Shown here: piece by piece, positions 11,747 through 53,260 of the stretch | Layout: the number at the start of each line of letters is the position of its first letter | How positions within the stretch are numbered: the stretch's first letter is position 1 | Virus record (IMG/VR): IMGVR_UViG_3300034110_000167 | Span: 1-61,418 of that record | Source of the DNA: a virus | DNA: 61,418 nt | Strand: one strand, 5' to 3' | The notes under the pieces: model-generated | The model's input: the letters and a program-made list of their open reading frames with translations, nothing else | Database searches by the model: none | Told to the model about the DNA's origin: nothing | Program-made: the position numbers and the translations under genes

Positions 11747-12019
11747 ATGATAGAATATATGGGTGAAAAGTTTGAGGGTTACAACAAACCTAAACGTACT
11801 CCTAATCACCCTACCAAGTCACATGTAGTACTTGTCAAAGAAAATGGCAAAGAAAAGATGATTCGGTTTGGTGAGCAAGGTACACAAGGAAGCCCCAAGA
11901 AAGAAGGTGAGTCTGAATCATACCGTAAACGAAGAGAATCTTTTAAAGCACGGCATGCAGCAGATATTGCTAAGGGTCCATTAAGCGCAGCTTATTGGGC
12001 AAATAAAGTCAAGTGGTAA
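11747..12019 (+). CDS. Small conserved phage protein, 90 aa
   Basis: The basic protein carries a motif I recognise from many marine and freshwater phages: KEKMIRFGEQGTQG, then SYRKRRESFKARHA and SAAYWANKVKW at the very end. The conserved Arg, His and Trp suggest nucleic-acid binding, but the function is unknown to me. It precedes phoH and follows a promoter repeat. Confidence 0.75.
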   Translation: MIEYMGEKFEGYNKPKRTPNHPTKSHVVLVKENGKEKMIRFGEQGTQGSPKKEGESESYRKRRESFKARHAADIAKGPLSAAYWANKVKW

Positions 12020-21511: not shown

Positions 21512-24500
21512 ATGAGTACATTAGAAGAAGATGCAAGGCTATTAGCCGAATCTAAAAAGCAACAACCCGGTTCTCCGGTTACAACTATTGATGACAAACC
21601 TGTAGGTTCCCCTGTTAAAGTTATTGACCCTGATACTATCAGAGTTGGTCAAGAATCATACCGTCTCAGAGGCTTTAATGCCCCGGAAACAGCGAAGTTC
21701 CAAGGCGGTATATTTGTGCCTAACCAAGTAGCCAATGATACATCCCAACAAGATGTTAACACTATTGCAACTCTTGGTGGTTACACTAATCTAGCAACAG
21801 AGGGTCGTGACCCTTATGGTCGTGTATTAGCTAAACAGACTAACCGTATTGGTGAATCATTAGGTGATACACTTACTGCATTAGGTTTGCAAAGAACTAA
21901 CTTACATAGTACAGATGCAGCTGTTCAAAAGAACGCTACACTAGGTGCTATCTCCAGAGTTCTACCTGAGCTAACTAATGCAGATCCAATGCTCCGTTAT
22001 GCCAGAGAAGCAAAAGAAAAGGCAATAGCAGATGCTGGTGGTAACCCTTTATACATTCCTAAAGTAAATGTACATGATGAAAAAATGTATGCTGCTTTTA
22101 AAAACTCTACTGGTATCCCTGCTGTAAAAGAAGAAGTGGAAGAAGTAGCAAGGCTTGAAAAGATTCTCAAAGAAGAACAATTAAAACCTGAGACAAGAAA
22201 GAATTTACAAGCTAAACTAGAACAGTCTAAACAAAGATTATTTTTAGCTGCAACTACGCCTGATATTGTTGGTGGTACACTTGTCAGAAATTCTGATCGT
22301 AATATTATGAATCAGGCCCATGACCAGTTTGATACTACCCTACACAGAGCAGCATTAGATATGTACAAAGGTCTTGGTGGTATTCTTCAATTATCCGGTG
22401 ACAAAACTGAATGGGAATGGTTATCAACTAAGGGTCAGGAGATAGTAAGAGAAACAAAGATGAAGCAAGATAACCTTGCCGATACTCTAACTTCTTTTAA
22501 GGACATTCGTACCAATGATCCTTGGACAGCTATTAAAGATACAGCGACTTACTCAACAAACCTTATTGCAGGTACATTACCTAGTATGGCTTTGTTACTG
22601 GCTTCTACTGCTGCCACTGGTGGTACTAACCTACCAGCATTAGCTGCTTACGGTTTATCTACGGTACCTCCTGCTATTATGTACTCAGGCAGCTTCTATG
22701 CTGATCAACCTGACGACAAGAAAAATGCTGAATTAGCTTTGGTGCTAGGTCTTGGTTCTGCTGTATTAGACCGAGTTGGTCTTGATGGTATGATGATGAG
22801 TGGTAATATTCTCACCAAATCTGGTAGAGAAGAAGTTGTTAATGCATTGGTACAAGCAGGTAAAGCAGCTACACCTCAAGAAGCTATGTCTATGATTGAA
22901 ATAGCTACTAAACGTGAGTTGGTGGATATGTCTAAGGCAGGTGCTGCGTTAGCTAAGTCACAATACGCTTCTACCGAAGCTGCCTTACGTGGTTTAGGTA
23001 AACTAACTACGGCTACTGGTGGTGAAGCTTCTACCGAAAGTGCTCAACAGTACTTAGAAATGATGGCTACTACTGGTGCATGGAATACTGATATTCAATA
23101 CGAGCGTAACTTTTATCAGAACCTTATGGATGCTGCTATTGGTGGTGGTACTATGGGTGGTATGTTCCAAACAGTGGGCCAATTAAAAGATGCTGCACAG
23201 TGGCAGTCATTAGGTAATGCCAGAGAAGTTTACAATCAACAACTTACAGAAGCACAAACATTTAACAATGACCAACTATTAAGAGTACGTGAAGGTGATC
23301 CAACAGCGTATGCAAGTACAGTTGAAATGGCTCGTGGGGTTAAGTCACAACCGACAAACACTCCTGTGCCTGATCTCAAATCACTACCTGCTTTAGAAGG
23401 TGCTTGGAATGGATTTAAATCTATTGTTACTGATCCCGGTAGGTTGTTAAGGCAATTAGTTGAAACCGCTATCCCTAGTATTACTAAAGAAGACGGTACA
23501 TTTAAAACAAACCTAGGTTATCTTAAGTCTATTATTGGTGGTAAAGGTATTTTACCCGGTGATAACTATGCTGGATTTAAGCAAAGATTAATGGGTAATT
23601 GGTCTGGTAATACTGCTGAGGAATTAGCAAGTAATTTAGGCACTAACGTATCTAACGCTAATAGAATGGCAAAGGAAGCTTGGCAAAACTACTGGTCTAA
23701 AGATCAAGAACTACCACAAACAACTAAAGAAAATATTGAGCTTCAAAACTGGAAGAACAACTTAGATACTGTTATGAATAAAATGAGAACTGAAGTTTCT
23801 CGTTTTAATACAACTAGTTCTGATCTTGATTCTGTTAATCCTTTGTTTGAGTCAGCCACTATTCATCCTGCTACACTAAACCGTAACAGAGAAGCAGTTA
23901 TCAATACTATGGTAGCTAATGGTAGTACAAGAAGACAGGCCCAAGAAGCATTAGAGAATGTTGTTTCAGGTGACCCAGACAAGGCAAAGCCAGCAAGAGA
24001 CTGGATGTCTAGGTATGGTGTTTTTAGTGACCCCAAATTGAATAATGTTTTTGAAACAAACTTATTTAATAGCATGGAGAACCTGAAAGAAAACGTAGCT
24101 AATAGGATTGCCCATGAAGTATTCTTAGGTGAAAACGGTAAAGTACTTTCTAAGTTACTAACTCAAGCTAAAGCTAATGGTGAGTTTGATTCTGAGCAAG
24201 AATACATGGACACTGTAAAGAACGTTCGTGATTGGTATGATATTGTTACGGGCCAGTATAACCCTTTAACTAAATACCCTAAGTTAGAGAAAATGCTTGG
24301 TTGGGGTACTACCTTAACTATGTTAGCTTCTTTAGGTAAAGCTGCTATTAGCTCTCAAGCTGAGGTTGCTATGTCTACACTAGGTACTAATGGTAATCAG
24401 GTTAAAAACCAATTGGCATTGTACGCAAAAACATTGGCCTCAGAACTTCGTAGTGACCTGAGTGGTGGTGCTTCTTTTGCAACTGCTAGTTTAGGTATTG

Positions 24501-25693
24501 CTTACACAAGGTATAGTCCACATGCTGCTATCAATACAAAGATTGAAAAGCTACAAAAAGAATTAGACATTGCTCAACAAAGTAATGATACTAAAACTTA
24601 TGAAAGAATTTCTAAAGAAGTTTCCGACCTCCACAGAAAAGCTTTTGGCAGATCATTGTTTGAAACCTTAGGTTATAATGAAACCGGATACAACACACAA
24701 GCTAAGTTTGAATTACCTAACAGTAATATGAGAAAGACTATGCAAGTGTTTGCTGCTATTATTGGCTTGAGAGCTACTACCGACTCTGTTCGTATTGCTT
24801 CTTTGGCTTTTGCCTCTGATGCAGTTATTACTAAGCTACAATCGCTAAGAGCTATTCCAGCGGAAGATCGGGTAACAGCGTTAACTACTGGTCGTGGTTT
24901 AGATAATCAACAAGGCCAAGCTCTTAAGGAACTTCAAGAGTCAGGCATGGATGTTCTAGGTGTTATAGAAGTACTAGACAATATGGAATCAATGAATCTT
25001 GATCCGTATGACTTCTTCTCTGAACAGAACCTAACTAAAGACGGTTATCCAGCTAATACACAAGCTAAGTTCCTACAAGAAAATATTCTTACGACTATTG
25101 GTAATATGACTGATGGTAAGATAGCTAACCCACAAGCGCATAATTTACCTAAGTATTACCATGATCCACGGCTACGTATAATTACTGCAATGACTCGCTT
25201 TATTGCAACCTTGCATGCAACTGTGCTACCAAAACTATACAGAAACTATATCCTAAATGGCGATGCTGGTATGCGTTACCAAGCCTTTAGTGTTGTTGCT
25301 ATGTCTATTATGTTCTCAATGTTAGCTAACATGATCAAAGATGAATTGTCCTATGGTGAAGAAAACCCTTATATTAAGGGTAAAGTAGCTAATGCACAAA
25401 GAACATTATATGGTTCTGGTTTATTAGGTCAGTATGAAAAGTTAGTAGATGGCATTATGCCATTGTATCCAGATAAGAAACCTTCTGTATTGGATAATCC
25501 TGTAAGATGGTCTTATGAAACGTTAAAAGATATTTCACCAGTTGTATCTTGGGCAGATAAGCCTGTTCAAGGTGCATACAAATTAAGTCAGGGAGATACT
25601 GCAGGTGGCGTTGCTCAACTAGTTAGAGCTGCACCCGTTGTAGGTAGTTTCCCTATTGTAGCTAATAAAGCAAAAGAAGCTTTAAAGGAGTAA
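21512..25693 (+). CDS. Large internal virion protein with N-terminal staphylococcal-nuclease-like domain, 1393 aa
   Basis: Residues about 20-115 look like an SNase/TNase domain: [11 protein letters not shown] with Asp41, [11 protein letters not shown] with Arg51 and Glu59, and [10 protein letters not shown] with Arg104. The aspartate expected in the RGFDAPET-type motif is Asn56, so activity may be altered. The rest is long, helical and Ala/Thr/Gln-rich, with hydrophobic stretches at about 355-400, as in T7 gp15/gp16-class ejection proteins. Position between two other very large virion genes supports ejection with the DNA. The nuclease-like fold could bind or cut nucleic acid during entry. Confidence 0.72.
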
Positions 25694-25699
25694 ATATAA

Positions 25700-28600
25700 A
25701 TGGCAATTCAAACTAAAGTCGCACCTTTAGGTAGCCCGAAGTCTGGTCTTTCATTAGATCAAATGTTAGCATTACAAGGTCAAACTACAGCGGCTATGGG
25801 CACAGTACCAGCACCTGTAGAAGATCCAAGAGCCACTGTACAAGCTACAGTGGATCAGTATATGCCAGACCCAATGGCTATTCCACAACCAACTGCACCT
25901 TCAGAAGAAGTTCTTGCATCAACACCGACTATCAGAACATACGAAGATATTGCTCGTGCATCTGGTTCTCAGTTCGGTGCTCGTCCAGTAGAAGAACCTG
26001 TATTGGATGCTCAGGGTAATCCTGTAGTAGACCCCATGACAGGTATGCCCCAAATGAGGGTTATTACTCCGGAAGATTATGCGAATCAGCAGTCCATTGA
26101 AAAGGCTTCTCAGCTAAACACAATGGAAGCTATGGAAGGTATGGCTCAAGACCCTTACGGTCAAGCTAAAGACGCTACCTCCGCATTGTTGTCTGGTAAA
26201 CAAGACTCAATGTTCAATGCTTCAGCACGAGACGTTGCAAAGTCTTCTATGGATGAAGACACCATTGATAGATATTCTGACAAAACCGCTACTGCTTTGG
26301 CCACTATTGTTTCTCAAACCAATGATGCCTTGTTTACTGCTAATGCACGTATCAAGAGTGAAATGAAAGGTGCTGACGGTAGCTCTGTCCTTATTGCTGC
26401 TGGTCTTAAAGCAGCTGCTGAAGATGGTTTTAGTTCTCCGGAAGAGTTGGCTGACCTAGGTTTAGTCTTTGGCGTTGCCTTAGCTAAGTCTGCTTCACAG
26501 GGCAAAGTAGAAAAGGGTGAGAAAGAAGGTACAGGTAAAGTAATGTCTGAGTCAGGCGCATCAGTTGATGATGCTACCTACATGCTTGACTTTATTAATT
26601 CTATTAAACACTTTGCTACCAATGGTCTTAACCGTATGGGTAAAAAGGTATCAGCCAAAGCTGTTAACGAAATGGCTAAGGCTGTAGCTATGGACGCTAT
26701 TGACCGTGGTGCTGTAAAGGTATTCCATATTGGTGATCGCCCTGTAGTTCAAATGAGTTCAGATATTAAAGATATTGCTCGTGACCTACAGATTGCTTCA
26801 GAAGCTTTAGTAGGTGACTACGGTCGTAGACGCTCTTCTTCTACACCTAACCGTAGTGGTACTTCCTTTGCCGCTAACAGACCCCAATTAACTAAGCGTT
26901 CTATTAAGAAAGGTGACTTAGTTACTACTGCTGCTGAAGCTACTAAAGACATTCTCGGTTCAGTTGGTTTAATGTTTGGTGCTAAAGATATTCAATACAA
27001 AGAGATTGAACTAGGTTTAGTTATGAGTCCTGAGTATCTTGAAAAAGACTCTCAAGGTAAAATTAAGTGGAGTAATCATTGGGCGGCCAAGCGTTTAGGA
27101 GTAAGTGAAAAAGATTTCAATGCAGCTAAAATGAAAACAAAGCCTGAGAAAGACTTTAATCCTGCAGACCCAGATGCTGTTAGACGCTTTGAGGCACAAC
27201 AGGAATACCAAGCAACAGAAGTTATTAATAACAAACTAAAGACCATTGAGTTTGATATTAAGAACGCTAAAAGTTCTCCCGGTATTCGTTACTCAGAATG
27301 GGTACACAGTTTATCTAACCAACGATTCTTCCCTAACAGCTTTGACGTAGACTACATGGGTTCCAAAAATGCAACTCGTGATATGCTAGGTTTTGCAGTT
27401 AAAGAATATGTTACTTCAGACATGTTGTTTGATCCACGTACAGTAGAAAACCTTAAGCAAAAAGCTATTGGTATCCTACGTATGCCCGGTGAAAAACAAA
27501 ATGAAGCTTTAGAAAAATTAACACCTTCTGAGCGTGGTGCTATTGGCACTATGCTTAATGCTGTTATTGGTTACTACTCTGCCGTTGAAGGTTCTAATCC
27601 TGACATTGTTAAGGAAGCACCCGCATCTATTGTATCTAAATATACACCTGCTATTGGTGATAAACTAGCTGAGGCTGGTAGAGACTATAATGCTTTCCTT
27701 GTTGATCCTATGAATGCCTCTGATAACATTCAGGAGCTATTAGCCGGTATGGAAAAAGGCGAATCTATGGGTTCTAAAAACCTGTGGGATGACATGTTTA
27801 ATCTAAAGGCTGCTTCACTCATTCCTGAAACAAAGCGTAAGCATATTCCATTAACTCACCATGCATTTGACGATGGTAATCAGAACGGTATTTTCTTACA
27901 GGCACTATTCTTTGGTAGTCCTGATAATGCTATTCGTCTGGGTACCTTTAATCCCTCATTGGATGACATGCGTGAGTACGCAATGAATACCATGATTGCT
28001 AATTTGGAAGAGAACTTAAAAGATAATATTGAGGCTAACGATGCCTTCAGAAATTTCTTTAAGGCCGTTAGAGATAAGCAAGGTAAAGCAGTTATGTCTA
28101 AAGATTTCTTCAAGAAACCTTTGATGCAGAATGCTTATGGTAAAGATGCCAGTATGTTTGGTGATATGATGGTTGAAATCTTAACCAACGTATACCCAGA
28201 TGAAGCACAACAATACTTATTGAACAGCAGTGTTTACAACCGTGATGTTGATAAAGCATCCTCAGCTTTGAGTGACGCATTAGAAAGCACTCTCAGAGAA
28301 GTTATTAACTCTAAATCAACACAAGTTCTTAAAGACATTGGCCGGTATACAGCTATCCTTAACCAAACAGTTATGATGCCTGGTATTACTGGCGACACCT
28401 ATGTGCTTACACCTGTAGAGGTTGTACCTATTAACAAAGCAAATGATAGTGGAGAAATCTTACCTATTAAGCTTGATGATGGTACTACTGTTATGGTTAA
28501 GTATAAGGCGTATGAGTCAGATACTTTTATTAACAGTGAAGGTCAAGAAGTAACTGTGGAGTCAAGTGCTATGGGCTACAGTCCTGCAGCAAGTAAAGGC

Positions 28601-29494
28601 GCTCAGTTAATTTACAACCAAAGAACTAAAAAGTATGATGTGTTTAACAACGCTATTGGTACAAGTCAGTCACGACAAATGGTAGTTATGCCTATCCAGT
28701 CTATTGACGGTGACTTAGTTAAGTCTACTACACTATCTGTGAATAAAAATAGATCAACTCCAGTACCTATTTTATGGGTACACGACTCAGCTATTTCTAC
28801 TCCGGGCGGCTCATTGCTGTATCGTAATGCCTATAACAATATCTCTATTCCTAAAGCTATTCCTCAAATTGCTAAGTTTGGAAATCAATTTGCAGCTGTT
28901 ATTAAAGACAGTGAAGAAGCGGTGTTCAACAAAGTAATGGAAAGGGGTCGTCCAGTAAGTATCGGTGATCAAGGGGACTTCCCTGCACTAGGCTCTTACC
29001 TAGATGAGCAGTTTGAAAGAGTACAAGATGATGGTGCTTATAAACAAATCTTCTTAAAGAGAGCTTATAACAACGAAACAACTTGGCTGAAATACCAACA
29101 GAAGACTAACGCTATTCTAAAAGAAGCTGAAGCTAATGGTTGGAAAGCACCAAGAAGTATTCCCGATACAGCCAATATGACTGGTGAACAGATCAGAAGA
29201 CACCTTGCGGTTACACCAAGGCAATTCAAAAACTTAGTTAATCTTTCTAAAGAAATGTTAAAGCTAAGTGGACCCTCAAATAGGTTTGATTCTTGGGTTC
29301 GTAACTTCGCAAGTAATGTTAATGATACTGCTTCTAAGCTAATGACTGCATCTAAGAAAGATGGTATTGGTCAAATGACTTATGGCGCTACTGGTGAACG
29401 TGCTGGTATTACTAAGTCTAAAGCTATTGCTGAACAAATGGATATTAAACGAGACGAAGAGTTCGTAGCTAAATACGAAAAAGCTTTTAAGTAA
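25700..29494 (+). CDS. Putative virion-packaged single-subunit RNA polymerase (N4 vRNAP-like), 1264 aa
   Basis: The last and convergently terminated internal virion gene contains the four landmarks of T7-family RNA polymerases in order. The T/DxxGR region appears as SNQRFF with Arg542, followed by SKNATRDML. Motif A is DDGNQNGI with Asp725 aligned to T7 Asp537. Motif B is SKDFFKKPLMQNAYG with Lys805 and Tyr813-Gly814, at the exact 8-residue spacing of T7 Lys631-Tyr639. Motif C is ILWVHDSA with His1028-Asp1029. The N-terminal about 400 residues are Pro/Ala/Gln-rich and may serve packaging or ejection. Enterobacteria phage N4 injects a polymerase of this kind to transcribe early genes. This one is far shorter than N4's (about 3500 aa). 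No function was assigned by search; the call rests on motif order and spacing. Confidence 0.8.
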   Translation: MAIQTKVAPLGSPKSGLSLDQMLALQGQTTAAMGTVPAPVEDPRATVQATVDQYMPDPMAIPQPTAPSEEVLASTPTIRTYEDIARASGSQFGARPVEEPVLDAQGNPVVDPMTGMPQMRVITPEDYANQQSIEKASQLNTMEAMEGMAQDPYGQAKDATSALLSGKQDSMFNASARDVAKSSMDEDTIDRYSDKTATALATIVSQTNDALFTANARIKSEMKGADGSSVLIAAGLKAAAEDGFSSPEELADLGLVFGVALAKSASQGKVEKGEKEGTGKVMSESGASVDDATYMLDFINSIKHFATNGLNRMGKKVSAKAVNEMAKAVAMDAIDRGAVKVFHIGDRPVVQMSSDIKDIARDLQIASEALVGDYGRRRSSSTPNRSGTSFAANRPQLTKRSIKKGDLVTTAAEATKDILGSVGLMFGAKDIQYKEIELGLVMSPEYLEKDSQGKIKWSNHWAAKRLGVSEKDFNAAKMKTKPEKDFNPADPDAVRRFEAQQEYQATEVINNKLKTIEFDIKNAKSSPGIRYSEWVHSLSNQRFFPNSFDVDYMGSKNATRDMLGFAVKEYVTSDMLFDPRTVENLKQKAIGILRMPGEKQNEALEKLTPSERGAIGTMLNAVIGYYSAVEGSNPDIVKEAPASIVSKYTPAIGDKLAEAGRDYNAFLVDPMNASDNIQELLAGMEKGESMGSKNLWDDMFNLKAASLIPETKRKHIPLTHHAFDDGNQNGIFLQALFFGSPDNAIRLGTFNPSLDDMREYAMNTMIANLEENLKDNIEANDAFRNFFKAVRDKQGKAVMSKDFFKKPLMQNAYGKDASMFGDMMVEILTNVYPDEAQQYLLNSSVYNRDVDKASSALSDALESTLREVINSKSTQVLKDIGRYTAILNQTVMMPGITGDTYVLTPVEVVPINKANDSGEILPIKLDDGTTVMVKYKAYESDTFINSEGQEVTVESSAMGYSPAASKGAQLIYNQRTKKYDVFNNAIGTSQSRQMVVMPIQSIDGDLVKSTTLSVNKNRSTPVPILWVHDSAISTPGGSLLYRNAYNNISIPKAIPQIAKFGNQFAAVIKDSEEAVFNKVMERGRPVSIGDQGDFPALGSYLDEQFERVQDDGAYKQIFLKRAYNNETTWLKYQQKTNAILKEAEANGWKAPRSIPDTANMTGEQIRRHLAVTPRQFKNLVNLSKEMLKLSGPSNRFDSWVRNFASNVNDTASKLMTASKKDGIGQMTYGATGERAGITKSKAIAEQMDIKRDEEFVAKYEKAFK

Positions 29495-29499
29495 GCAAA

Positions 29500-29547
29500 T
29501 AAAAACCCCTACTAGGATTATTCCTAATAGGGGTTATTTTTTTTTTT
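29500..29547. terminator. Bidirectional terminator between convergent blocks
   Basis: AACCCCTA (29504-29511) and TAGGA (29513-29517) pair with TCCTA (29522-29526) and TAGGGGTT (29528-29535) around a TTAT loop, with one C-A mismatch. A long T-run follows on the plus strand, and the minus strand reads GGGGTTTTTATTT. It separates the last plus-strand gene from the last minus-strand gene. Confidence 0.95.
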
Positions 29548-29803
29548 ATTTACTTAGCTCTTTAATTTGGGACCGTACATCATCAGCTAACTTATCAGCC
29601 AAAGATAAAGCACTATCACTATCAATACCACGCTCAAGGTAAGACTCATAATTCTCTCGGTGCATTGCTTTAATAGCAGCATCATTAATGGCAGGTGTAT
29701 TAGCTAGCCGTGGGTCTAGCCCAAGGGTAGAGCATACATCCTGATCGGTTGTTTCGGTATCACCACGAAGGGCAAATAAATTATAATGTTTTAACTCAGA
29801 CAT
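29546..29803 (-). CDS. Hypothetical protein, 85 aa
   Basis: I place the start at the ATG at 29803 (MSELKHYNLFALRGD). GGAAAG lies 7 bases upstream and the gene overlaps the end of the Dps-like gene. An earlier in-frame ATG at 29818 is possible. The product is acidic and helical. No family is recognised. It is the last gene of the minus-strand block and ends at the bidirectional terminator. Confidence 0.65.
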   Translation of the reverse strand: MSELKHYNLFALRGDTETTDQDVCSTLGLDPRLANTPAINDAAIKAMHRENYESYLERGIDSDSALSLADKLADDVRSQIKELSK

Positions 29804-30222
29804 GAATCTACTTTCCATTTAAGTTTAGAGACTCCAGTCATATAGTCTCCGATATATGTTTCTAAGGCACCGTGGCCCTCAGCACCTGCTTCTTCATATA
29901 GTTTTTGGCTACAATCAAGAATCATTTTAAGATCATTACAGGTATTTGTCAGCATATCCTTTAACTTAGTCTCACCGGCAGATACATTAACAATACTGTC
30001 TGTAAGATAACTCTTCAAACTAATAGGTACTTTGTAACCCATTTGACGAAGCTGTTCGTTTAATGTGTCATGGTTCTCAAAAAGATATGTGTATACTTCA
30101 CTAAACAAATTGTGATACTGAACAAAGTCAGGACCAACAACGTTAAAGTGGTATACATGTGCGTTAAAATATGCCAGAAAATTATCGGCAATAAGGTTAT
30201 TCAGTTTTGTTTGGCAACTCAT
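29791..30222 (-). CDS. Dps-like ferritin-family protein
   Basis: The 143-aa protein shows the Dps ferroxidase signature: HFNVVGPDF with His25, then QYHNLFSEVY with His37 and an acidic residue five further on. The predicted layout is four helices, with a closing KLKWKVDSCLS segment. Dps proteins form 12-mers that oxidise and store iron and protect DNA from oxidative damage. Phage copies are known mainly from aquatic metagenomes. Whether it acts in the cell or in the virion cannot be told. It overlaps both neighbours in a compact operon. Confidence 0.85.
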   Translation of the reverse strand: MSCQTKLNNLIADNFLAYFNAHVYHFNVVGPDFVQYHNLFSEVYTYLFENHDTLNEQLRQMGYKVPISLKSYLTDSIVNVSAGETKLKDMLTNTCNDLKMILDCSQKLYEEAGAEGHGALETYIGDYMTGVSKLKWKVDSCLS

Positions 30223-30352
30223 TTGTTTCCTTTGTTTCAGGGAACAACTCTTGCTGCTCCACTTCTTTTACTTTCTTACCAAAGATAGTATCCCAATTAC
30301 TTCGGACTTTATCTTCATCACAGGGTCTACGCCCTGAACCTTTACCACTCAT
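30197..30352 (-). CDS. Small conserved phage protein, 51 aa
   Basis: The frame reads MSGKGSGRRPCDEDKVRSNW, then DTIFGKK, and ends PNKTE. The combination KGSGRRP followed by NWDTIFGKK is one I recognise from small proteins of many phages, with no known function. It overlaps the start of the Dps-like gene by 26 bases. A GAAGG lies upstream of the ATG. Confidence 0.7.
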   Translation of the reverse strand: MSGKGSGRRPCDEDKVRSNWDTIFGKKVKEVEQQELFPETKETNELPNKTE

Positions 30353-30366
30353 AATATACCTTCATG

Positions 30367-30543
30367 TTATTTTAACTTCATAGACAGGTTAAAATTAGGC
30401 GCTTGATAGCTACCCCATCCCATCTCTACAGACAATGCTTCTAACTCTAAATCTAATAAGAAAGCCCTATCATCGTGAAGAATTTCTTCAGGTGTCAGAT
30501 CATAGTTAGGGTTCATGTCTGCAATGTCATGTTCATTAATCAT
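30367..30543 (-). CDS. Small acidic hypothetical protein, 58 aa
   Basis: The ATG at 30543 overlaps the stop of the upstream gene (ATGATTAA). The product is MINEHDIADMNPNYDLTPEE, then helical, ending FNLSMKLK. No family is recognised. The overlap and the GAAGAAG upstream support translation. Confidence 0.6.
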   Translation of the reverse strand: MINEHDIADMNPNYDLTPEEILHDDRAFLLDLELEALSVEMGWGSYQAPNFNLSMKLK

Positions 30544-30871
30544 CTTCTTCCTCTGATATTGCTTCTAAGATACTTTTATTACCACGCTTCTTATTAGCTT
30601 CTGTGTTTAGTTTAATAAAGTCTGTAGTAGCTTCTTCTAGATATGTTCTTAGGTTTGTTAATTCAAAGATTAATAAATTTAGTTTATCCATTTTTTCTTT
30701 AACAGCTTTGGCTTCCCACATATTGAAATCAAGATCAATACGTCTGTTACAGTCAGTCAGTGTAACATCACAACCAAAGTTCCATGCCGTATAGTTAGCA
30801 TCTACTTCAATACAAGCAATCCCTTTTGTTTTGTTAAGGAATTTCCTTACATGATATTTCTTTTTAGCCAT
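30536..30871 (-). CDS. Hypothetical protein, 111 aa
   Basis: The start is the ATG at 30871 (MAKKKYHVRKFLN). A longer in-frame reading would begin inside the tRNA-Arg gene and is rejected. The N-terminal half is beta-like with Cys and Trp. The C-terminal half is a helical or coiled segment with an acidic end (SEEEDD). No family is recognised. AAGGATTAAA lies just upstream. Confidence 0.65.
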   Translation of the reverse strand: MAKKKYHVRKFLNKTKGIACIEVDANYTAWNFGCDVTLTDCNRRIDLDFNMWEAKAVKEKMDKLNLLIFELTNLRTYLEEATTDFIKLNTEANKKRGNKSILEAISEEEDD

Positions 30872-30888
30872 TTTAATCCTTAGGTTAT

Positions 30889-30963
30889 TGGAGGGTAGTA
30901 GAGGAATCGAACCCCTATTCAAGCGGTAGAAGCACTTTGTATTATCCGTTATACGAACCACCC
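30889..30963 (-). tRNA. tRNA-Arg (TCT)
   Basis: A full cloverleaf can be drawn: acceptor GGGTGGT/ACTACCC with one G-T pair, D stem GTAT/ATAC, anticodon loop CTTCTAC (TCT), T loop TTCGATT, and encoded CCA. It reads AGA, a codon rich in this AT-rich genome. Confidence 0.9.
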
Positions 30964-31012
30964 AATAGTTTGCACCCTTTATTTTACTATGCGGGTGCTA
31001 CATAGGACGCCT
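30964..31012 (-). other. Short spacer with a 6-bp hairpin
   Basis: GCACCC (30972-30977) pairs with GGGTGC (30993-30998) across a 15-base loop, between the homing endonuclease gene and tRNA-Arg. There is no T-run, so it may be a processing site and not a terminator. Confidence 0.4.
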
Positions 31013-31537
31013 TTACTGTGACGACAACAGCCCTAAGGTATTCCCATTTAAGGGAGGGATCTTTTCAAAGCTATATCCTTGATGTGTACTTTGTTTACCA
31101 TTTAAACATTTATACACTGCTTCTGGAGTAAAACCAAAATCTTTTAATTCATTTTTACCTGATAATGTAATTGACACACCATCTTTAACAGCCTTAATTT
31201 TGTATTTAGTTAAACCAATTCTACTTTTATTACCAATAGCTTGTTTACCATTAGGTTTAGGTGGCTTACCACCTCCTTTAATAATGTTCCAACCTATTTT
31301 ATCATTAGGTCTAAGCATTTCTTCAGCAAGCAAAACTAATTCTTCATCTAATCCAACAACTAACGGTTGCTTAATTAATTTATCCCAAGAATATTTTGAT
31401 ATAACATTATTTAAAATAGCGTTAGGGTAAGCAAAGTGTTCTTTCATTCGCCTATCAAAATTATTTGTAATGCCAATATATCCTTGAGAGTTATAGTCAT
31501 TATGGTTAGGACTACAGATCCAATATAATGTATACAT
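31013..31537 (-). CDS. GIY-YIG homing endonuclease with NUMOD-type DNA-binding module
   Basis: The 174-aa protein has a GIY-YIG domain at its N-terminus (YWICSPNHNDYNSQGYIGIT, then NNFDRRMKEH, with Arg30 and a later Glu). A basic Gly/Pro/Lys linker follows, then a C-terminal NUMOD1/IENR1-like repeat (LSGKNELKDFGFTPEAVYKC). This layout is that of free-standing phage homing endonucleases. It sits inside the tRNA cluster, between tRNA-Met and tRNA-Arg, a common site for such mobile genes. Confidence 0.88.
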   Translation of the reverse strand: MYTLYWICSPNHNDYNSQGYIGITNNFDRRMKEHFAYPNAILNNVISKYSWDKLIKQPLVVGLDEELVLLAEEMLRPNDKIGWNIIKGGGKPPKPNGKQAIGNKSRIGLTKYKIKAVKDGVSITLSGKNELKDFGFTPEAVYKCLNGKQSTHQGYSFEKIPPLNGNTLGLLSSQ

Positions 31538-31552
31538 ATAGTCCTTTCTATT

Positions 31553-31626
31553 TGGAAGCGGGTACTGGATTCGAACCAGTGATGCTGCGAGCTTATGAGA
31601 CTGCAGTAGTGACCACCTTACCCGCT
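31553..31626 (-). tRNA. tRNA-Met-like (CAT), irregular
   Basis: The acceptor AGCGGGT/ACCCGCT is perfect, the T arm (ACTGG/CCAGT, loop TTCGAAT) is canonical and CCA is encoded. The anticodon loop is CTCATAA (CAT). The anticodon stem only pairs with a bulged base, and the D arm is short (GGT/ACT). It may be a diverged or decaying copy, or one read as Ile after modification. Confidence 0.65.
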
Positions 31627-31632
31627 ATTGTT

Positions 31633-31709
31633 TGGTCTCAAGAACCGGACTCGAACCGATAACCAATGAATTATGAGTTCACTGCTCTAACCAGTTGAGC
31701 TATCTTGAG
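31633..31709 (-). tRNA. tRNA-Met (CAT)
   Basis: A regular cloverleaf: acceptor CTCAAGA/TCTTGAG, D arm AGCTCAACTGGTTAGAGC, anticodon loop CTCATAA, T loop TTCGAGT, encoded CCA. A CAT anticodon could also decode ATA if the cytosine is lysidylated. The sequence alone does not decide this. Confidence 0.9.
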
Positions 31710-31717
31710 TATTTGTT

Positions 31718-31793
31718 TGGCATACCCCGTAGGACTTGAACCTACAACCTGTGGGTTTGGAATCCACTGCTCTGCCAATTGAGCTAGAGGCAC
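31718..31793 (-). tRNA. tRNA-Trp (CCA)
   Basis: Acceptor GTGCCTC pairs with GGGGTAT with several G-T pairs. The D arm is AGCTCAATTGGCAGAGC, the anticodon loop TTCCAAA (CCA), the T arm GTAGG/CCTAC, and CCA is encoded. One A-C mismatch closes the anticodon loop. Confidence 0.88.
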
Positions 31794-31800
31794 ATTTGTT

Positions 31801-31888
31801 TGGTGGATGCTCTTGGAATCGAACCAAGTGTGCTCCTTAGAGCGGAGGATTTACAATCCCCTGAAGTCACCAATGCTTCTCAACATCC
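31801..31888 (-). tRNA. tRNA-Tyr (GTA), long variable arm
   Basis: Acceptor GGATGTT/AGCATCC, anticodon loop TTGTAAA (GTA), a long variable arm (CGCTCTAAGGAGC) as expected for bacterial class II tRNA-Tyr, T loop TTCGATT and encoded CCA. Confidence 0.9.
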
Positions 31889-31894
31889 TTTGTT

Positions 31895-31970
31895 TGGCTG
31901 GCAAACCTGGGCTCGAACCAGGGACATCATGATTAACAGTCATGCGCTCTACCAACTGAGCTATATGCCA
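31895..31970 (-). tRNA. tRNA-Asn (GTT)
   Basis: Acceptor TGGCATA/TTTGCCA with one T-T mismatch, D arm AGCTCAGTTGGTAGAGC, anticodon stem CATGA/TCATG with loop CTGTTAA (GTT), T arm CCTGG/CCAGG, encoded CCA. It is the first tRNA downstream of the promoter repeat at 32057. Confidence 0.92.
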
Positions 31971-32056
31971 AAAGGGTATACGTCTCATATACCTAGTATT
32001 TCGTTTTGTATACCGTATAATACTTACTACGGGGTTAAGTCACCGAGAATCCCCAG

Positions 32057-32078
32057 TTTCCTATTAGGAACCGGCTAG
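32057..32078 (-). promoter_or_regulatory. Phage promoter repeat, minus orientation, upstream of the tRNAs
   Basis: On the minus strand the sequence is TAGCCGGTTCCTAATAGGAA followed by AC. It overlaps the last codons of nrdB, whose C-terminal Ala-Gly-Ser-stop is encoded by GCC GGT TCC TAA of the element. It faces the tRNA cluster, which otherwise has no obvious promoter. Confidence 0.65.
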
Positions 32079-33044
32079 TTTACCCCAGTCCCAGTCACCT
32101 TCCATACCATTAATAGAGTATTCAGTAACACGCTTCTCAAAGAAATTGTCATGGGACACACCATTAAGAATCCAGTCTAACCAAGTCAGTGGATTCTCTT
32201 TTACTTTGAAGTTAGTCTTAAGACCTAGTTGAAGCAATCTACGATCGGTAATATACCGGATGTACTGCTTAACATCTTCTTTAGTAATACCTTCAATATC
32301 ATATTCGGCAAATGCAAGATCAATAAAGCTATCTTCAAGACCAACTACATCTCGAGCCATCTGATAAATCTTAGATTTAAATTCATCATTAACTACTTTA
32401 GGGTGCTCATTACAGAACTCCCTGAATAGCCGTGAGTTACCTTCTACGTGTACAGTCTCATCTCTAATAGACCATTCAACAATAGTGCTCATACCTTTCA
32501 TCTTACCAAACCGTTGTAGGTTAAGTAGCATAACAAAGGAAGCAAACAAAGATACACCTTCGTTTAATACTGACTTAGCTAATGACAAGGCCAAGCCCGA
32601 TTGTGTTGATGAGTCAGACCTAGCCATAAAGTCAATCTTGTCCGACATTTCTTTATAGTCAAGAAACTTATGAAACTCTTCGTCAGGTAAACCTAAGGTG
32701 TCGTTGAGTAAAGCATAAGCACGTTGGTGGGTACCTTCACGACCAGCAAAGGAACCTAACATAACTCGTACTTCATTGTTTTTAAACTTAGGAATTAAGA
32801 AGTCATAATAGTTCTGACCTACTTGTACATCGCCCTGAGTAAACAACCGTAAGATATTAGTAATAAAATCTTTTTCACCATTTGTTAACTTGATTTTCCA
32901 ATCATTAACGTCTTCAGATAAGTCAGCCTCATCCTCTGTCCAGTGAATCTCTTCGTGTTTCTTAGTAATTTCTACAGCCCATTCATGGTTAAATGGTTTG
33001 TAGGTCTTAGAGAAATTTAGTAATGATGACATATTATCCTTCAC
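32064..33044 (-). CDS. nrdB: Ribonucleotide reductase class I small subunit
   Basis: The 326-aa protein has the di-metal ligand motifs of NrdB: EGTHQRAY (Glu, His and the radical-type Tyr four residues after the His), LNEGVSLFASF and IRDETVHVEG. It generates the radical used by NrdA to reduce ribonucleotides to deoxyribonucleotides for phage DNA synthesis. The start overlaps the end of nrdA by 11 bases, so the subunits are coupled. It ends inside a promoter repeat. Confidence 0.95.
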   Translation of the reverse strand: MKDNMSSLLNFSKTYKPFNHEWAVEITKKHEEIHWTEDEADLSEDVNDWKIKLTNGEKDFITNILRLFTQGDVQVGQNYYDFLIPKFKNNEVRVMLGSFAGREGTHQRAYALLNDTLGLPDEEFHKFLDYKEMSDKIDFMARSDSSTQSGLALSLAKSVLNEGVSLFASFVMLLNLQRFGKMKGMSTIVEWSIRDETVHVEGNSRLFREFCNEHPKVVNDEFKSKIYQMARDVVGLEDSFIDLAFAEYDIEGITKEDVKQYIRYITDRRLLQLGLKTNFKVKENPLTWLDWILNGVSHDNFFEKRVTEYSINGMEGDWDWGKLAGS

Positions 33045-35013
33045 AAGCTTTACATTCGTTATCTTCTTGAACTACTTCAGTTAACTCTTTGTAGAGTTCG
33101 TTGAATCCCCCAATGTATACACCATTGAGATATACCTGAGGTAAGGATCTAACATCAGGTCGTCCTGTGATTTCTGCTGCTGTTTTGCCTGTAGTTGTGA
33201 TGTCAACATATTCAAATTCAATTCCTCGGGAGTCAAGCAAGGACTTTGCCATAGTGCATTGGGGGCAGTTTGGTTTACCATAAATAATTGTTTCCTTAAT
33301 TTCAATCAATTTGTCTTCCTTTACCTTTTCAGATACATTCTCTGCCCGTTGTTTAGCTTCGGTACGTAAGTAGTATAAACCTTTAAGACCTTTATCCCAT
33401 GATTTAAAGTGTACCGAGTTAACATAACTTCTGTCAGCACCTGCAGGGAACGCCAGATTAACTGATTGCCCTTGGCAGATATATCTTTGACGATCTGCTG
33501 CATGGTCTACAACCCAATGCTGATCTAATTCAAAGAATGTTTTAAAAATATCTTTTGTTTCTTTGGATAAATCTAAGTGTTGAATACTACCTTTGTTAGT
33601 AATAATAGAAGACCAAACAGCTTCTGTATTCATACCTAGTGCATCAAGCTTCTTCTCAAGGTATTTGTTTTTAACTAAGAAAGAACCTGCACGGGTACGG
33701 TGAGTGTAAGCATTTGCCTTGTTAGGCTCAATACTAGGAGACGTACTCAGTAAAATACCTGAAGAGGCGTTAGGCGCAATAGCTAGTAGGTGAGCATTAC
33801 GTTTGCCGCTACCAACCATATCTAAGGCTTCTCCACGATATTCACCTAACCAATAAGTTTCTTTTAAAGCTTGTTGCTTAATACGACTGAAAATAGTAAT
33901 GTTGTTTAGACGGGCTTCATCAGATTCAAAAGGAATACCTTTACGTTGTAAATATTCATGGAAACCCATAGCACCCAGACCAATAGAGCGTTCATGTTTA
34001 GCTGAGAACACAGCCCGTGATAATGCATCATGAGCGTTCTCAATAAAGTATTCTAGTACGTTATCAAGCATACGTACTAAGTCTTCAACCATATGGGTAT
34101 CTTTCCAATCATCGTAGTATTCTAAGTTGACTGAAGATAAACAGCATACTGCGGTACGGTCTTCACTGGTAGGTAAATGAATTTCATTACACAAATTACT
34201 ACCGTGAATTTTAAGACTTTTATCCTTTAGTTCTTGTGGTAAAGCTTCGTTAGCCGTATCAATAAAGTTTAAGTATGGTTCACCAGTACGGAAACGAGTC
34301 TCAAGCAACTTAGCCCACACAGTACGTGCATCTAGGAATTCACCTGTGTTACCTACTTTGGGGTCTACCAATTCATAGGTTTTACCGCTCCGAACACAAT
34401 CCATAAAATGATCACTGATATTAACAGCATTATGGAGATTAAAACACTTACGATTAACATCGCCTGTGGGAATACGTAAACCAATGAATTCAAGAATATC
34501 AGGGTGATCAATGTTAAGATAGGCAGCATAAGAACCTTTCCGGGTTTTTCCTTGTCGATAAGCAGTCATATCAGCATCTACTGTATGTAAGAATGGGATA
34601 GGGCCAGGCGCTACGTCCGATACTGAACGAACATCAGACCAATGGCCACCAACACCACCACCCATTACAGACAACCAACGTAGCTCAGAGGAATGATCAA
34701 TCAAGCCTTGTACAGTATCAGGTACGTATGTAAGGAAACAACTAATAGGTAATCCTTTAGCTTTCTGACCGTCAATAGGTGCATTTGAAAGCACAGGAGA
34801 GGCAAACATAAACCACTTCTTAGACACATAGTCATACAGACGTTGTGCCAAGTCTTCGTCTCGTACACCTTTGTATACGCTCCATGCCCATGCTGCTCGT
34901 GCAAACACGTCTTGTGGGGAATTTTCACCCTCTTTAGAATAAAAATCCATGATCATATCTACAGCATAATCTGTAAGCAAAGTATCACGGATGTATTCAA
35001 TCTTAATATTCAT
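33034..35013 (-). CDS. nrdA: Ribonucleotide reductase large subunit with fused glutaredoxin
   Basis: The 659-aa protein has the catalytic NLCNE (Asn273, Cys275, Glu277), the redox cysteines at Cys92 and Cys290, and the paired tyrosine region of NrdA. There is no ATP-cone at the N-terminus, so the usual dATP switch may be missing. Residues about 575-645 are a glutaredoxin domain (KPNCPQC, Cys583/Cys586, later LPQVYLNG and GGF). The last residues, ECKACEG (Cys654/Cys657), look like the swinging redox tail of NrdA placed beyond the glutaredoxin. A promoter repeat lies upstream at 35039. Confidence 0.95.
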   Translation of the reverse strand: MNIKIEYIRDTLLTDYAVDMIMDFYSKEGENSPQDVFARAAWAWSVYKGVRDEDLAQRLYDYVSKKWFMFASPVLSNAPIDGQKAKGLPISCFLTYVPDTVQGLIDHSSELRWLSVMGGGVGGHWSDVRSVSDVAPGPIPFLHTVDADMTAYRQGKTRKGSYAAYLNIDHPDILEFIGLRIPTGDVNRKCFNLHNAVNISDHFMDCVRSGKTYELVDPKVGNTGEFLDARTVWAKLLETRFRTGEPYLNFIDTANEALPQELKDKSLKIHGSNLCNEIHLPTSEDRTAVCCLSSVNLEYYDDWKDTHMVEDLVRMLDNVLEYFIENAHDALSRAVFSAKHERSIGLGAMGFHEYLQRKGIPFESDEARLNNITIFSRIKQQALKETYWLGEYRGEALDMVGSGKRNAHLLAIAPNASSGILLSTSPSIEPNKANAYTHRTRAGSFLVKNKYLEKKLDALGMNTEAVWSSIITNKGSIQHLDLSKETKDIFKTFFELDQHWVVDHAADRQRYICQGQSVNLAFPAGADRSYVNSVHFKSWDKGLKGLYYLRTEAKQRAENVSEKVKEDKLIEIKETIIYGKPNCPQCTMAKSLLDSRGIEFEYVDITTTGKTAAEITGRPDVRSLPQVYLNGVYIGGFNELYKELTEVVQEDNECKACEG

Positions 35014-35038
35014 TGTTGTTCCTTGTTAGTATTTATTG

Positions 35039-35061
35039 TTAGGTATTAGGTACCAGCTATT
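35039..35061 (-). promoter_or_regulatory. Phage promoter repeat, minus orientation, upstream of nrdA
   Basis: The minus strand reads AGCTGGTACCTAATACCTAA. It shares GGTACCTAATA with the other copies and, like the copy at 43932, replaces the GG-AA end by CCTAAC. It sits in the 57-base gap between the RNA polymerase and nrdA genes. Confidence 0.65.
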
Positions 35062-35070
35062 CTCGCTACA

Positions 35071-37278
35071 TTAGCAAAAGAAATATTTTGAATTAATTAC
35101 TTCGGCTAAGTCTAAATTACCTAGCTCAGGTTGTTCAAAAGTAAAGGAGTCTTTGTTAAGCATCAAAGTATCTTTAAGTACTTCAAAGAAGTTTTCCACA
35201 TCATATTGTGCAATGAATGTTACTTTAGTTACTTCTTGTAGAAAGTCCACTTCATCAGCATGGGTACTAAATGAGTCGTGAACCGCACCAAATGAACCAT
35301 TGAAAGAAACAATAGTGTTAGCCATATGAGCAGCATCATAGGAATGAACAACGTTAGGGCTAATACCAGACGCAAAACTACGGCGGCAAGGTACACGCTC
35401 ATTAGTCTCTTTATTAATGACATCGACTTTAACCACATGCATGACACGACCGTCTTTATTGCCTTGAATACCTTTAATAGTACCACGTTGTTTCCTTTCA
35501 TGTTGTAGGTTAGCCTTATACACTACAGGAAAACCACTTGGGGTATGCCAAGTTAAATTGTTACGGCCAGAGTTTAATTCATGTTCAGCTATTTTCTGTA
35601 GGAACTTAGTAGTTTTCAGTGGACCAGCACATACACTGTTAATAGCTTTAATAAGGTTACTGGCAAGGTTATTACAGTCATCCTCACTGATACCATACTT
35701 TACCGTAAAGCCTTCCATGTGACAGTCATCGTACATGTTCTTTGCAATACGTTGCTTACCCGCTGAGTATGCTCGGGTCATAGAACCACGTTTGGCAATG
35801 CCTTTACGGATATGTTTCATGGGCATTTGCTTTTCATTAAACCATTCAGGCATAACAGTAATAAGCTCTTTAGCTACAGCTACATAGAAGTCTTTCTGAA
35901 TAGGAGTAGGTACTAAGGAGACTAATGTACCTGCTTGTTTATCCTTAGACATAGCTGCCAGATGTTGCCAACCGTTGTTACTACCATCAATAGGAATAGG
36001 AAACCCTGACATGTATTCTTGTCGTAAGATTTTACACTTATGATATGCAGCAATCTCAATACAACAAGCTAAGAAGCTATAAGGTTTTTCGGCACTGTGA
36101 TCAATGTATTTAGCACGAGCTGATTGAATAATAAACTCTAGGTTATGTTTAACCCATAGAGCACGATCATCCAACGTCATTTTATCTACAGAGATAGTGT
36201 CCAGACCTTCATCTTGGAGGTATTTAGCATAATCTGTGGTAAGGTATACCATACTTTTAAGCTCATCGATTGAATATGATTTGTTGTAACAAGCTGCAGT
36301 GTGTACGCTAAGCCAGTAGTAGCCTCGTTCACTGACCCGTTTTTTGTTAGCAAACAAAAACAAGGATCGAGCAAGATCACTTCCTTGGAATTCAAGAAAG
36401 GATTCAGCGTAATATACTCGTCCACGATAGTCACAGGATACCTCTTGATAAAATGTTTTGTTACCAACCAACTCAGCCTTCTTAATGACTTGATTATACT
36501 CAAAGTATTTACTAAGCATACGTTGTAGCTTAGGGTCTTTCTTACCTAAGAATTTTGTACCGTCAAGGTTATTAAGCTTCTTTGGTAAGTGCAGGTTTTC
36601 ATGGTGGATATTGTATAGTTGGATCTCACCATTTTCATCGACTAACTCTAGTACTTCTGGTGGTTTAACCGCTTTCATAGCAGACAACAATGGCTGATTT
36701 AATTGCCAAGGTTGTTGGCGTAACCCTTCAAGACTTTGAATGAAAGGTTTACTTAAGTACTCGTGAAACAGTTTACTGTTAGTCCATCCTTTAATAAAAG
36801 GTTCTTTAGTTAAAGGGCTATATAAACCAGCAATAGGTAGTAAGGGCTCAAAAGAAGTACCGATAAGTGTAGGCTTAATGTCATCGTCCATATTAACAAT
36901 ACGAACTAAGTAAGGTGCCTTACGACCATCGTATTCTCTGAAGATATCTATTAGGCTATCTTGTAGGAATGTCTCAAGTAGAAGATCTCCCAGAGACAAA
37001 GTAGTTTTGATATCTGATTCGTCAGCCCCAATACCTCGGGCAATTCTCTTTCCAATAAGATCAGATGCAAATGTGAGTTTAACGGATGCTGAATGAGTAG
37101 CATTTTTATTTCGGATACAGTATTTGAGTAAGGTATCCCATGCCTCATTGATAAATCGTTCGAGATCATACTCCCAAGTTGAATGATGTGCCAGAAGACG
37201 AGCACCTTCATTCTGAATCTTATCTGAGTTGAGGGCAATCTTCGATACACGTTCAGTAAGATATTGTAGTGGATTCAT
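35071..37278 (-). CDS. T7-like single-subunit RNA polymerase
   Basis: The 735-aa protein contains DYRGRVYY (Asp283-Arg287), motif A PIPIDGSNNGWQH (Asp431), motif B AKRGSMTRAYSAG (Lys496, Tyr504) and motif C VHDSFST (His667-Asp668). The length is a little below T7's 883 aa. Tyr504 is followed by Ser-Ala-Gly, not Gly. It should transcribe the phage's middle and late genes, probably from the repeated GGTACCTAATAGG element. It is transcribed with primase-helicase and DNA polymerase. The genome encodes a second, divergent polymerase in the virion. Confidence 0.96.
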   Translation of the reverse strand: MNPLQYLTERVSKIALNSDKIQNEGARLLAHHSTWEYDLERFINEAWDTLLKYCIRNKNATHSASVKLTFASDLIGKRIARGIGADESDIKTTLSLGDLLLETFLQDSLIDIFREYDGRKAPYLVRIVNMDDDIKPTLIGTSFEPLLPIAGLYSPLTKEPFIKGWTNSKLFHEYLSKPFIQSLEGLRQQPWQLNQPLLSAMKAVKPPEVLELVDENGEIQLYNIHHENLHLPKKLNNLDGTKFLGKKDPKLQRMLSKYFEYNQVIKKAELVGNKTFYQEVSCDYRGRVYYAESFLEFQGSDLARSLFLFANKKRVSERGYYWLSVHTAACYNKSYSIDELKSMVYLTTDYAKYLQDEGLDTISVDKMTLDDRALWVKHNLEFIIQSARAKYIDHSAEKPYSFLACCIEIAAYHKCKILRQEYMSGFPIPIDGSNNGWQHLAAMSKDKQAGTLVSLVPTPIQKDFYVAVAKELITVMPEWFNEKQMPMKHIRKGIAKRGSMTRAYSAGKQRIAKNMYDDCHMEGFTVKYGISEDDCNNLASNLIKAINSVCAGPLKTTKFLQKIAEHELNSGRNNLTWHTPSGFPVVYKANLQHERKQRGTIKGIQGNKDGRVMHVVKVDVINKETNERVPCRRSFASGISPNVVHSYDAAHMANTIVSFNGSFGAVHDSFSTHADEVDFLQEVTKVTFIAQYDVENFFEVLKDTLMLNKDSFTFEQPELGNLDLAEVINSKYFFC

Positions 37279-43931: not shown

Positions 43932-43954
43932 GTTAGGTATTAGGTACCGACTAG
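43932..43954 (-). promoter_or_regulatory. Phage promoter repeat, minus orientation
   Basis: The minus strand reads AGTCGGTACCTAATACCTAA, then C. It is very similar to the copy upstream of nrdA. It starts the operon running from the 51-aa protein through the nucleotide enzymes into DNA polymerase. Confidence 0.65.
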
Positions 43955-50548: not shown

Positions 50549-50716
50549 TTAAAAGAGAAGTGTAATGGCTGTTAATACTGATACGGATACGAAAGCCGTG
50601 GCTAATACAGCTAACATAATTTTAGCTGTTTTTAAGGTGAAATTATCTTTGAAGAACCAGTAACTACCGGCCACAACAAACATTGTCAGGAAGAATACAA
50701 ATAGCAATTTAATCAT
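50549..50716 (-). CDS. Small membrane protein, 55 aa
   Basis: The frame MIKLLFVFFLTMFVVAGSYW, a short basic loop, then IMLAVLATAFVSVSVLTAIT gives two transmembrane helices. The start overlaps the RNA ligase stop (ATGATTAA). It precedes the coiled-coil and SPFH genes, so the three may form a membrane module. Confidence 0.65.
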   Translation of the reverse strand: MIKLLFVFFLTMFVVAGSYWFFKDNFTLKTAKIMLAVLATAFVSVSVLTAITLLF

Positions 50717-53259: not shown

Positions 53260-53260
53260 G

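Follow-up and report, generated by a model that had tools for sequence, protein, structure and literature searches.

A compact virion-type RNA polymerase paired with an intact T7-like RNA polymerase in an aquatic bacterial virus and its relatives

The DNA analysed here is IMG/VR virus record IMGVR_UViG_3300034110_000167, a stretch of 61,418 bases from an aquatic bacterial virus; the whole stretch is called the window below. Its genes form two opposed arms. The mainly leftward arm (29.5-58.5 kb) contains small genes, replication genes, a gene for a T7-like RNA polymerase (RNAP) and ribonucleotide reductase genes. The rightward arm contains terminase, portal, capsid, tail and lysis genes and three genes for large proteins, the final one of which, at 25700-29494(+), meets the leftward arm tail-to-tail. 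In this work, we focus on that gene, which encodes a divergent single-subunit RNAP of the lineage of the phage N4 virion RNAP (vRNAP), on the T7-like enzyme at 35071-37278(-), and on a 20-bp element, TAGYCGGTACCTAATAGRAA, that is most likely the promoter of the T7-like enzyme. All feature coordinates are collected in Table 1.

The T7-like enzyme is readily identified. It matches Pfam RNA_pol (4.6e-57), PHROG RNA polymerase (9.8e-99) and the T7 RNAP chain 1aro (7.7e-28), and it contains the only PF00940 match in the whole record. The original prediction described an intact T7-like enzyme with Asp431, Lys496, Tyr504 and His667-Asp668; indeed, the open reading frame (ORF) is complete, and D431, K496, Y504, H667 and D668 are all present and invariant across the enzymes of the window, relative L005 and Roseobacter phage CRP-7. 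With PF00940 over the cut-off and the catalytic Asp, Lys, Tyr and His-Asp in place, the protein is a T7-like single-subunit RNAP. Its motif B reads YS; that of T7 RNAP reads YG. The best match among phage records is CRP-7, at 29% identity (tblastn).

The second enzyme is visible only to profile methods. Single-sequence searches with the 1264-residue protein gave no significant match in Pfam, PHROGs, PDB or phage records (tblastn); the PDB sequence search returned a lone, unrelated row (E-value 0.5), and BLASTP against N4 found no match. Iterated hmmsearch of the fetched loci of relatives, however, collected 109 family ORFs, comprising 66 distinct sequences, 57 of them under 90% identity. When these 66 aligned sequences, the window's included, were compared by hhalign with 14 N4-type vRNAPs (N4 and 13 relatives picked among the 60 listed of 377 records), the match had Prob 99.0 and an E-value of 6.4e-18, was collinear over 677 columns, and placed all four catalytic motifs (TxxGR, A, B and C) in register. 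By the same program the family is nearer the N4-type vRNAPs than the T7-like family (8.3e-8). Controls gave E-values of 0.35 (reversed N4 alignment), about 1 (10 column shuffles) and 0.26 (a neighbouring protein family). Note that only the 66-sequence alignment is decisive: smaller inputs of four window-clade sequences (4e-4, Prob 34%), 13 mixed sequences (0.016) and nine CRP-7-clade sequences (0.049) were weak, as was the family profile against the N4 sequence alone (0.029, Prob 1.7%). Of 21 family members scanned, two have a PHROG match to 'virion RNA polymerase' (best 1.1e-8), and three have a weak one to Pfam RNA_pol (best 0.0015); the window's own sequence has neither. A PDB profile search returned single-subunit RNAPs in four of five rows, none under an E-value of 0.3.

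The AlphaFold2 model of the protein (Table 1) has an RNAP fold. The 50 PDB matches listed by Foldseek all belong to mitochondrial or T7 RNAPs (8.8e-14 for the yeast mitochondrial enzyme, 3.2e-11 for that of T7), and the RNAP matches in BFVD include N4-type vRNAPs. VIA-align superimposes the model on T7 RNAP 8dh5 (Z 24.7, 4.0 A, 524 residues), on N4 mini-vRNAP 2po4 (Z 19.7, 5.0 A, 576 residues) and on full N4 gp50 9pnt (Z 16.0, 4.8 A, 588 residues). On this homology, fold and conservation of catalytic residues, 25700-29494(+) is a divergent single-subunit RNAP of the N4 vRNAP lineage, with predicted activity. Thus, the central claim of the original prediction, two different single-subunit RNAPs in one phage, is borne out by the profile match and the modelled fold, and both proteins retain their catalytic residues computationally.

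The gene closes the structural operon after the large cysteine-free proteins, in the same relative place as N4 gp50. Cysteine is absent from the second enzyme and its two large upstream neighbours, from the three CRP-7 counterparts, from N4 gp50 (3500 residues) and from 56 of the 66 family members; the T7-like enzymes of the window and CRP-7 contain 11 and 14 cysteines, and none of 159 T7-like RNAPs is cysteine-free. From homology, operon position and the absence of cysteine, we infer that the second enzyme is carried in the virion. In N4, the cassette consists of gp50-gp51-gp52 (PMC12633501, in the part available). The idea that gp50 corresponds to the three window proteins fused (3632 residues) was tried and is not supported; the family of the 1393-residue neighbour compared with gp50 gave E-values of 0.0028 (Prob 11%) for the N-terminus and 0.15 for the C-terminus.

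To collect relatives, IMG/VR was scanned with both RNAPs, and the best 80 and 79 of 234 confirmed loci were used; some of these are near-identical (e.g., L137, L141 and L143) and hence not all independent. The T7-like enzyme retrieved 159 loci, of which 58 continue for 8 kb or more beyond its gene, 24 for 4-8 kb and 77 for a shorter distance. A hidden Markov model finds a vRNAP-type gene in the opposite orientation in 57 of the 58 long loci, and hhalign finds it in the remaining one (L136, E-value 1.5e-23), so that the two genes are tail-to-tail in 58 of 58; in the shorter loci it was found in 19 of 24 (4-8 kb) and 13 of 77 (<4 kb). In other words, the tail-to-tail pair is conserved in a diverse lineage. 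Outside it, tblastn with the second enzyme of the window and six divergent relatives found no match in 50,697 phage records, and that with CRP-7's own second enzyme matched CRP-7 alone, although T7-like RNAPs match in 2560 of the same records; therefore, from these searches, the pair looks specific to this lineage. A scan of the genome contigs collection found no relative. The only isolate found with the pair is CRP-7 (MK613349), whose second enzyme, gp33 (QBQ72826), is annotated 'hypothetical protein' and is homologous to that of the window (20% identity, E-value 3e-7, two-sequence BLASTP). CRP-7 has three large cysteine-free genes in the same order as the window; depending on the alignment, the T7-like RNAPs of the two phages are 29-38% identical and their vRNAPs 17-23%.

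The original prediction took a repeated 13-mer as the promoter of the T7-like enzyme; this sequence forms the core of the 20-bp element TAGYCGGTACCTAATAGRAA. In the window, the repeat GGTACCTAATAGG has 11 matches with at most two mismatches, versus 1.36 expected, a number reached in 0 of 100 shuffles, and the core motif occurs in 13 of 14 relative records with 89 matches versus 8 for the reversed pattern. A matrix built on eight window sites, for which window matches are in-sample, detects 8-11 sites in every one of the six relatives scanned, 47 of these 54 lying outside crude gene calls, versus 0-1 in five window shuffles. Moreover, among non-coding 16-mers repeated at least five times, no family other than this element occurs in six of the seven genomes, and in the remaining one, G013, there is a single extra family that resembles a ribosome-binding site plus start codon. 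CRP-7 has an intergenic repeat of its own, TATAGTCCNNTATTAAAAGG (at 2024, 7145, 14762 and 38262), which is likely the promoter of the CRP-7 T7-like enzyme.

What assigns the element to one of the two enzymes is its behaviour across relatives, where it follows the T7-like enzyme and not the vRNAP. It is retained in L042, L043, L055, L064, L072 and L106, whose T7-like enzymes are 80-85% but whose vRNAPs are only 14-17% identical to those of the window. In L067, L068, L069, L071 and L103 it is replaced by a variant, mostly with GTCCCC in place of GGTACC. L068 and L069 share this variant with T7-like enzymes 95.5% identical and vRNAPs only 16.3% identical, and L068 and L072 have different promoters despite vRNAPs 53.9% identical. 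The promoter also co-varies with the T7-like enzyme at the residue level: 5 of the 30 residues separating the two groups fall within the 17-residue region 597-613, which we aligned with the specificity loop of T7 RNAP (P 0.00035, ignoring common descent; 17 versus 5 of 30 enzymes, the 8 with fewer than two motif copies being dropped). One of the five loop differences is M613R. In our reading, M613 aligns with T7 Q758 and, if the G of TAATAG is +1, position -8 shifts from mostly A to C between the promoter types; T7 Q758 contacts -8 (PMC5937735, in the part available). On the basis of this covariation, TAGYCGGTACCTAATAGRAA is most likely the promoter of the T7-like enzyme, as originally proposed. 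The length of the element and its TAATAG end resemble those of T7-type promoters.

The second enzyme varies widely among phages with closely similar T7-like enzymes. Of 758 locus pairs (not independent) whose T7-like enzymes share 70-95% identity, 410 have vRNAPs <25% identical, 161 have vRNAPs 25-50% identical, and in 187 the vRNAP identity is 50% or more. The identity of the upstream 1393-residue neighbour to that of the window tracks vRNAP identity, and L042, L055, L068, L072, L106 and others have nearly identical T7-like RNAPs but differ, as one cassette, in the vRNAP together with the large protein upstream. Judging from these identities, the ejection cassette changes independently of the late programme, either by exchange or by much faster evolution.

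We consider it probable, largely by analogy with N4, that the vRNAP is injected and starts early transcription or genome entry, and that the T7-like enzyme then transcribes the middle and late genes. In this programme, the 1264-residue starter polymerase would be packaged and ejected through the tail with the two other cysteine-free proteins, would begin the first transcription, as the N4 vRNAP does, and, by pulling, would probably aid genome entry. Its transcription would presumably be resistant to rifampicin. Early transcripts would lead to the T7-like polymerase, which would recognize TAGYCGGTACCTAATAGRAA, re-transcribe its own replication block, and take over the middle and late genes; among these is the virion operon, from which the following batch of starter enzyme would come. 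The putative earliest gene block (55256-58494) has no T7-like promoter upstream, and therefore another polymerase must transcribe it first; an early role of the second enzyme there is suggested by analogy.

A more specific form of this programme is conceivable, though we hold it only tentatively: a widespread aquatic lineage with an interchangeable starter polymerase, swapped within the ejection cassette, which would initiate either at the DNA end as it enters the cell or with little specificity. Being swapped among phages with near-identical T7-like enzymes and promoters, this polymerase would not depend on one fixed N4-type hairpin set. Equally tentatively, the interchangeable enzyme would act as a motor, drawing the genome into the cell by transcribing it and setting off expression of the T7-like enzyme.

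Several observations weigh against the assignment and the programme built on it. Arg replaces the catalytic Lys of motif B in 14 of the 66 sequences, the CRP-7 clade among them (L007-L015 and other relatives). The whole-chain TM-scores of the Foldseek matches are low (about 0.35-0.41 by query, with a root-mean-square deviation of 13-21 A), and the VIA-align Z-score is higher for T7 RNAP (24.7) than for N4 vRNAP (19.7). Cysteine is also absent from 93 of 108 other ORFs of at least 700 residues in the loci (neither family members nor T7-like RNAPs), and so its absence marks the gene module, presumably mostly virion proteins, and not the enzyme. Finally, k-mer, perfect-hairpin, sigma-70 and conservation searches found no early promoter of any kind, and the first genes may possibly be transcribed early by the host.

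This last point bears on the strongest alternative, in which the vRNAP-like protein is active mainly as a low-specificity motor for DNA internalization and the host RNAP transcribes the first genes. The early promoters of N4 form hairpins that are rich in GC and have a loop of 3 nt (PMC4496689, in the part available). Our hairpin script recovers the three of N4, at 90, 557 and 4546 of the N4 record, and yet gives no candidate in the non-coding DNA of the window (perfect stems; imperfect ones were not searched). No other repeated non-coding motif stands out in the k-mer search of the window, and the second, early promoter class that was originally predicted thus did not materialize in either search. 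In addition, the 410 of 758 pairs with vRNAPs <25% identical are hard to square with fixed vRNAP promoters, although early regions may also be replaced, or promoters may be few and non-repetitive. Host promoters are no better represented: sigma-70-like sites are not enriched at 44-59 kb (44 versus 46.6 expected), the near-consensus TTGACA site at 57356-57327 lies inside a gene and lacks conservation across four relatives, and early-block conservation across relatives gave no promoter candidate. At a TTTAGA-TATAAT site (58510-58481), TATAAT is kept in the closest relative, G001, and not clearly in the other three. On balance, we regard the motor with host transcription as unlikely.

Far less credible is a structural role of the vRNAP-like protein as an ejection protein in the manner of T7 gp16, with a retained polymerase fold but no catalysis. 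Its fast divergence, jointly with the neighbouring ejection-type protein, and the Lys-to-Arg replacements in motif B would fit such a scaffold. However, when 56 of the sequences were aligned separately, the others being 10-73% identical to that of the window, no column was invariant except those of the two catalytic aspartates, and across the 66 sequences Tyr813 and Arg542 are each kept in 65; a dead scaffold is not expected to keep such residues. That the repeat is instead a promoter of the vRNAP, or a binding site of another protein, we consider the least probable of all, since, even though the three copies at 53260, 53770 and 55250 are within the early region or close to it, the motif persists where the vRNAP is replaced, changes with the specificity loop of the T7-like enzyme, precedes terminase and other late genes, and resembles T7-type promoters in its length and end.

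The second enzyme shares with N4 gp50 (Schitoviridae) the RNAP domain, the four motifs in register and the lack of cysteine, and gp50 is likewise the last gene of the late arm, beside other ejection proteins and convergent with the opposite arm. The differences are also clear. Gp50 has 3500 residues against 1264; motif A reads FDDGNQNG in the window against ExDGxxxG in N4-type enzymes; and N4 has 3-nt-loop hairpin promoters, of which none was found in the window. As the original prediction noted, the second phage polymerase of N4 is a heterodimer (RNAPII, gp15/gp16; PMC4496689), and the window has one intact 735-residue polypeptide in its place, and no gp15/gp16-type heterodimer, which characterizes Schitoviridae. 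Because the enzyme is shorter than 2500 residues and lacks ExDGxxxG, we do not file it as a Schitoviridae vRNAP proper. A published 2023 search of IMG/VR for N4-like viruses filtered, in its available part, for at least 2500 residues and ExDGxxxG (PMC10654107), and this filter would have discarded the present family.

Like the RNAPs of Autographiviridae, the T7-like enzyme of the window carries the catalytic residues, and it has a T7-style repeat that co-varies with its putative specificity loop; it differs by its pairing with a virion-type enzyme. To our knowledge, the T7-like RNAP is the sole phage RNAP in Autographiviridae, whose genomes measure about 40 kb and have their genes on a single strand; the window has a second RNAP, two opposed arms and 61 kb. 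The Stenotrophomonas phage StenR_269 (OR838459) has a large putative vRNAP, proposed as such (PMC10747016, in the part available), which is likewise cysteine-free. We tried it as a family member and rejected it, with no detectable similarity (E-value 0.62; 0.37 to N4), and no T7-like RNAP was found in the first 50 of its 66 kb.

Other features of the record include the following. The record ends (1-225 and 61194-61418) overlap by 225 bp at 98.7% identity inside an apparent portal gene, so the record, though classed linear, probably represents a circularly permuted genome in essentially complete form. Five tRNA genes lie in 30889-31970(-): Arg-TCT, Met-CAT, Trp-CCA, Tyr-GTA and Asn-GTT; CRP-7 likewise has tRNA-Arg(TCT) (PMC6918029, in the part available). 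The ribonucleotide reductase large subunit, 33034-35013(-), carries a glutaredoxin domain at its C-terminus. A mostly non-coding stretch at 57939-57993, 89% identical in relative G008, is not a tRNA.

Table 1. Positions in the window of the two polymerases, their conserved elements, the putative promoters and other features
Feature	Position	Strand	Remarks
Divergent N4-vRNAP-lineage single-subunit RNAP	25700-29494	+	1264 residues, no Cys; last gene of late/virion operon
T/DxxGR motif, Arg542	27323-27325	+	65/66 aligned sequences
Motif A, catalytic Asp725	27872-27874	+	66/66
Motif B	28112-28141	+	Lys805 (52 K, 14 R of 66), Tyr813 65/66, Gly814 63/66
Motif C, His1028-Asp1029	28781-28786	+	Asp 66/66; His 42, Phe 15, Tyr 9
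AlphaFold2-modelled region, residues 280-1264	26537-29491	+	RNAP fold; pLDDT (predicted local distance difference test) 89.0, pTM (predicted template modelling score) 0.84
Large Cys-free protein	21512-25693	+	1393 residues, directly upstream of vRNAP gene; divergence tracks vRNAP's; candidate ejection protein
Large Cys-free protein	18568-21495	+	975 residues; matches PHROGs endolysin, tape measure protein, tail injection transglycosylase; candidate ejection protein
T7-like RNAP	35071-37278	-	735 residues, 11 Cys, complete ORF
Putative promoter specificity loop, residues 597-613	35440-35490	-	in T7-like RNAP
Putative T7-like promoter	11722-11741	+	upstream of late gene 11747-12019
Putative T7-like promoter	32058-32077	-	upstream of tRNAs and genes 29546-31537
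Putative T7-like promoter	35040-35059	-	upstream of ribonucleotide reductase genes
Putative T7-like promoter	43934-43953	-	upstream of replication block containing T7-like RNAP gene
Putative T7-like promoter	53260-53279	+	upstream of 53300-53698(+)
Putative T7-like promoter	53770-53789	-	
Putative T7-like promoter	55250-55269	-	most upstream on leftward arm
Putative T7-like promoter	58539-58558	+	upstream of terminase large subunit and portal gene
Putative earliest gene block	55256-58494	-	leftward genes; no T7-like promoter upstream; proposed role
Terminase large subunit	58599-60242		
PhoH-like protein	12031-12714	+	
Ferritin-like protein	29791-30222	-	
GIY-YIG/HmuI-type homing endonuclease	31013-31537	-	
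RNA ligase	50709-51734	-	

A literature search, mainly of open-licence papers, found no description of a vRNAP-type enzyme paired with a T7-like RNAP. In its available part, the CRP-7 paper names one RNAP (PMC6918029), and the main text of a 2025 paper on other roseophages, as far as available, names no RNA polymerase (PMC12629253). Lenneman and Rothman-Denes (2015) examined 26 vRNAP homologs and, in the part available, reported that all virion-RNAP species but two (with split genes) have a heterodimeric RNAPII, proposing an evolutionary link between virion RNAP and RNAPII (PMC4496689). What appears new here is the combination of an N4-like starter enzyme with a T7-like take-over, which was not met in the literature searched. 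The pairing is an exception to the reported rule that injected polymerases accompany a two-subunit partner, and, because a virion-type enzyme is here paired with an intact T7-like enzyme, the link between vRNAP and RNAPII is not obligatory.

The vRNAP-type enzymes of this family are also compact, with about 1,260 residues, about one third of the size of N4's. If the starter is indeed interchangeable, the lineage would be unlike both N4, which uses hairpin promoters, a heterodimer and late host RNAP, and T7, which uses host RNAP early. CRP-7 is an isolate that allows tests of virion content and rifampicin sensitivity, and the covariation of RNAP and promoter, if confirmed, would supply new T7-type enzyme-promoter pairs.

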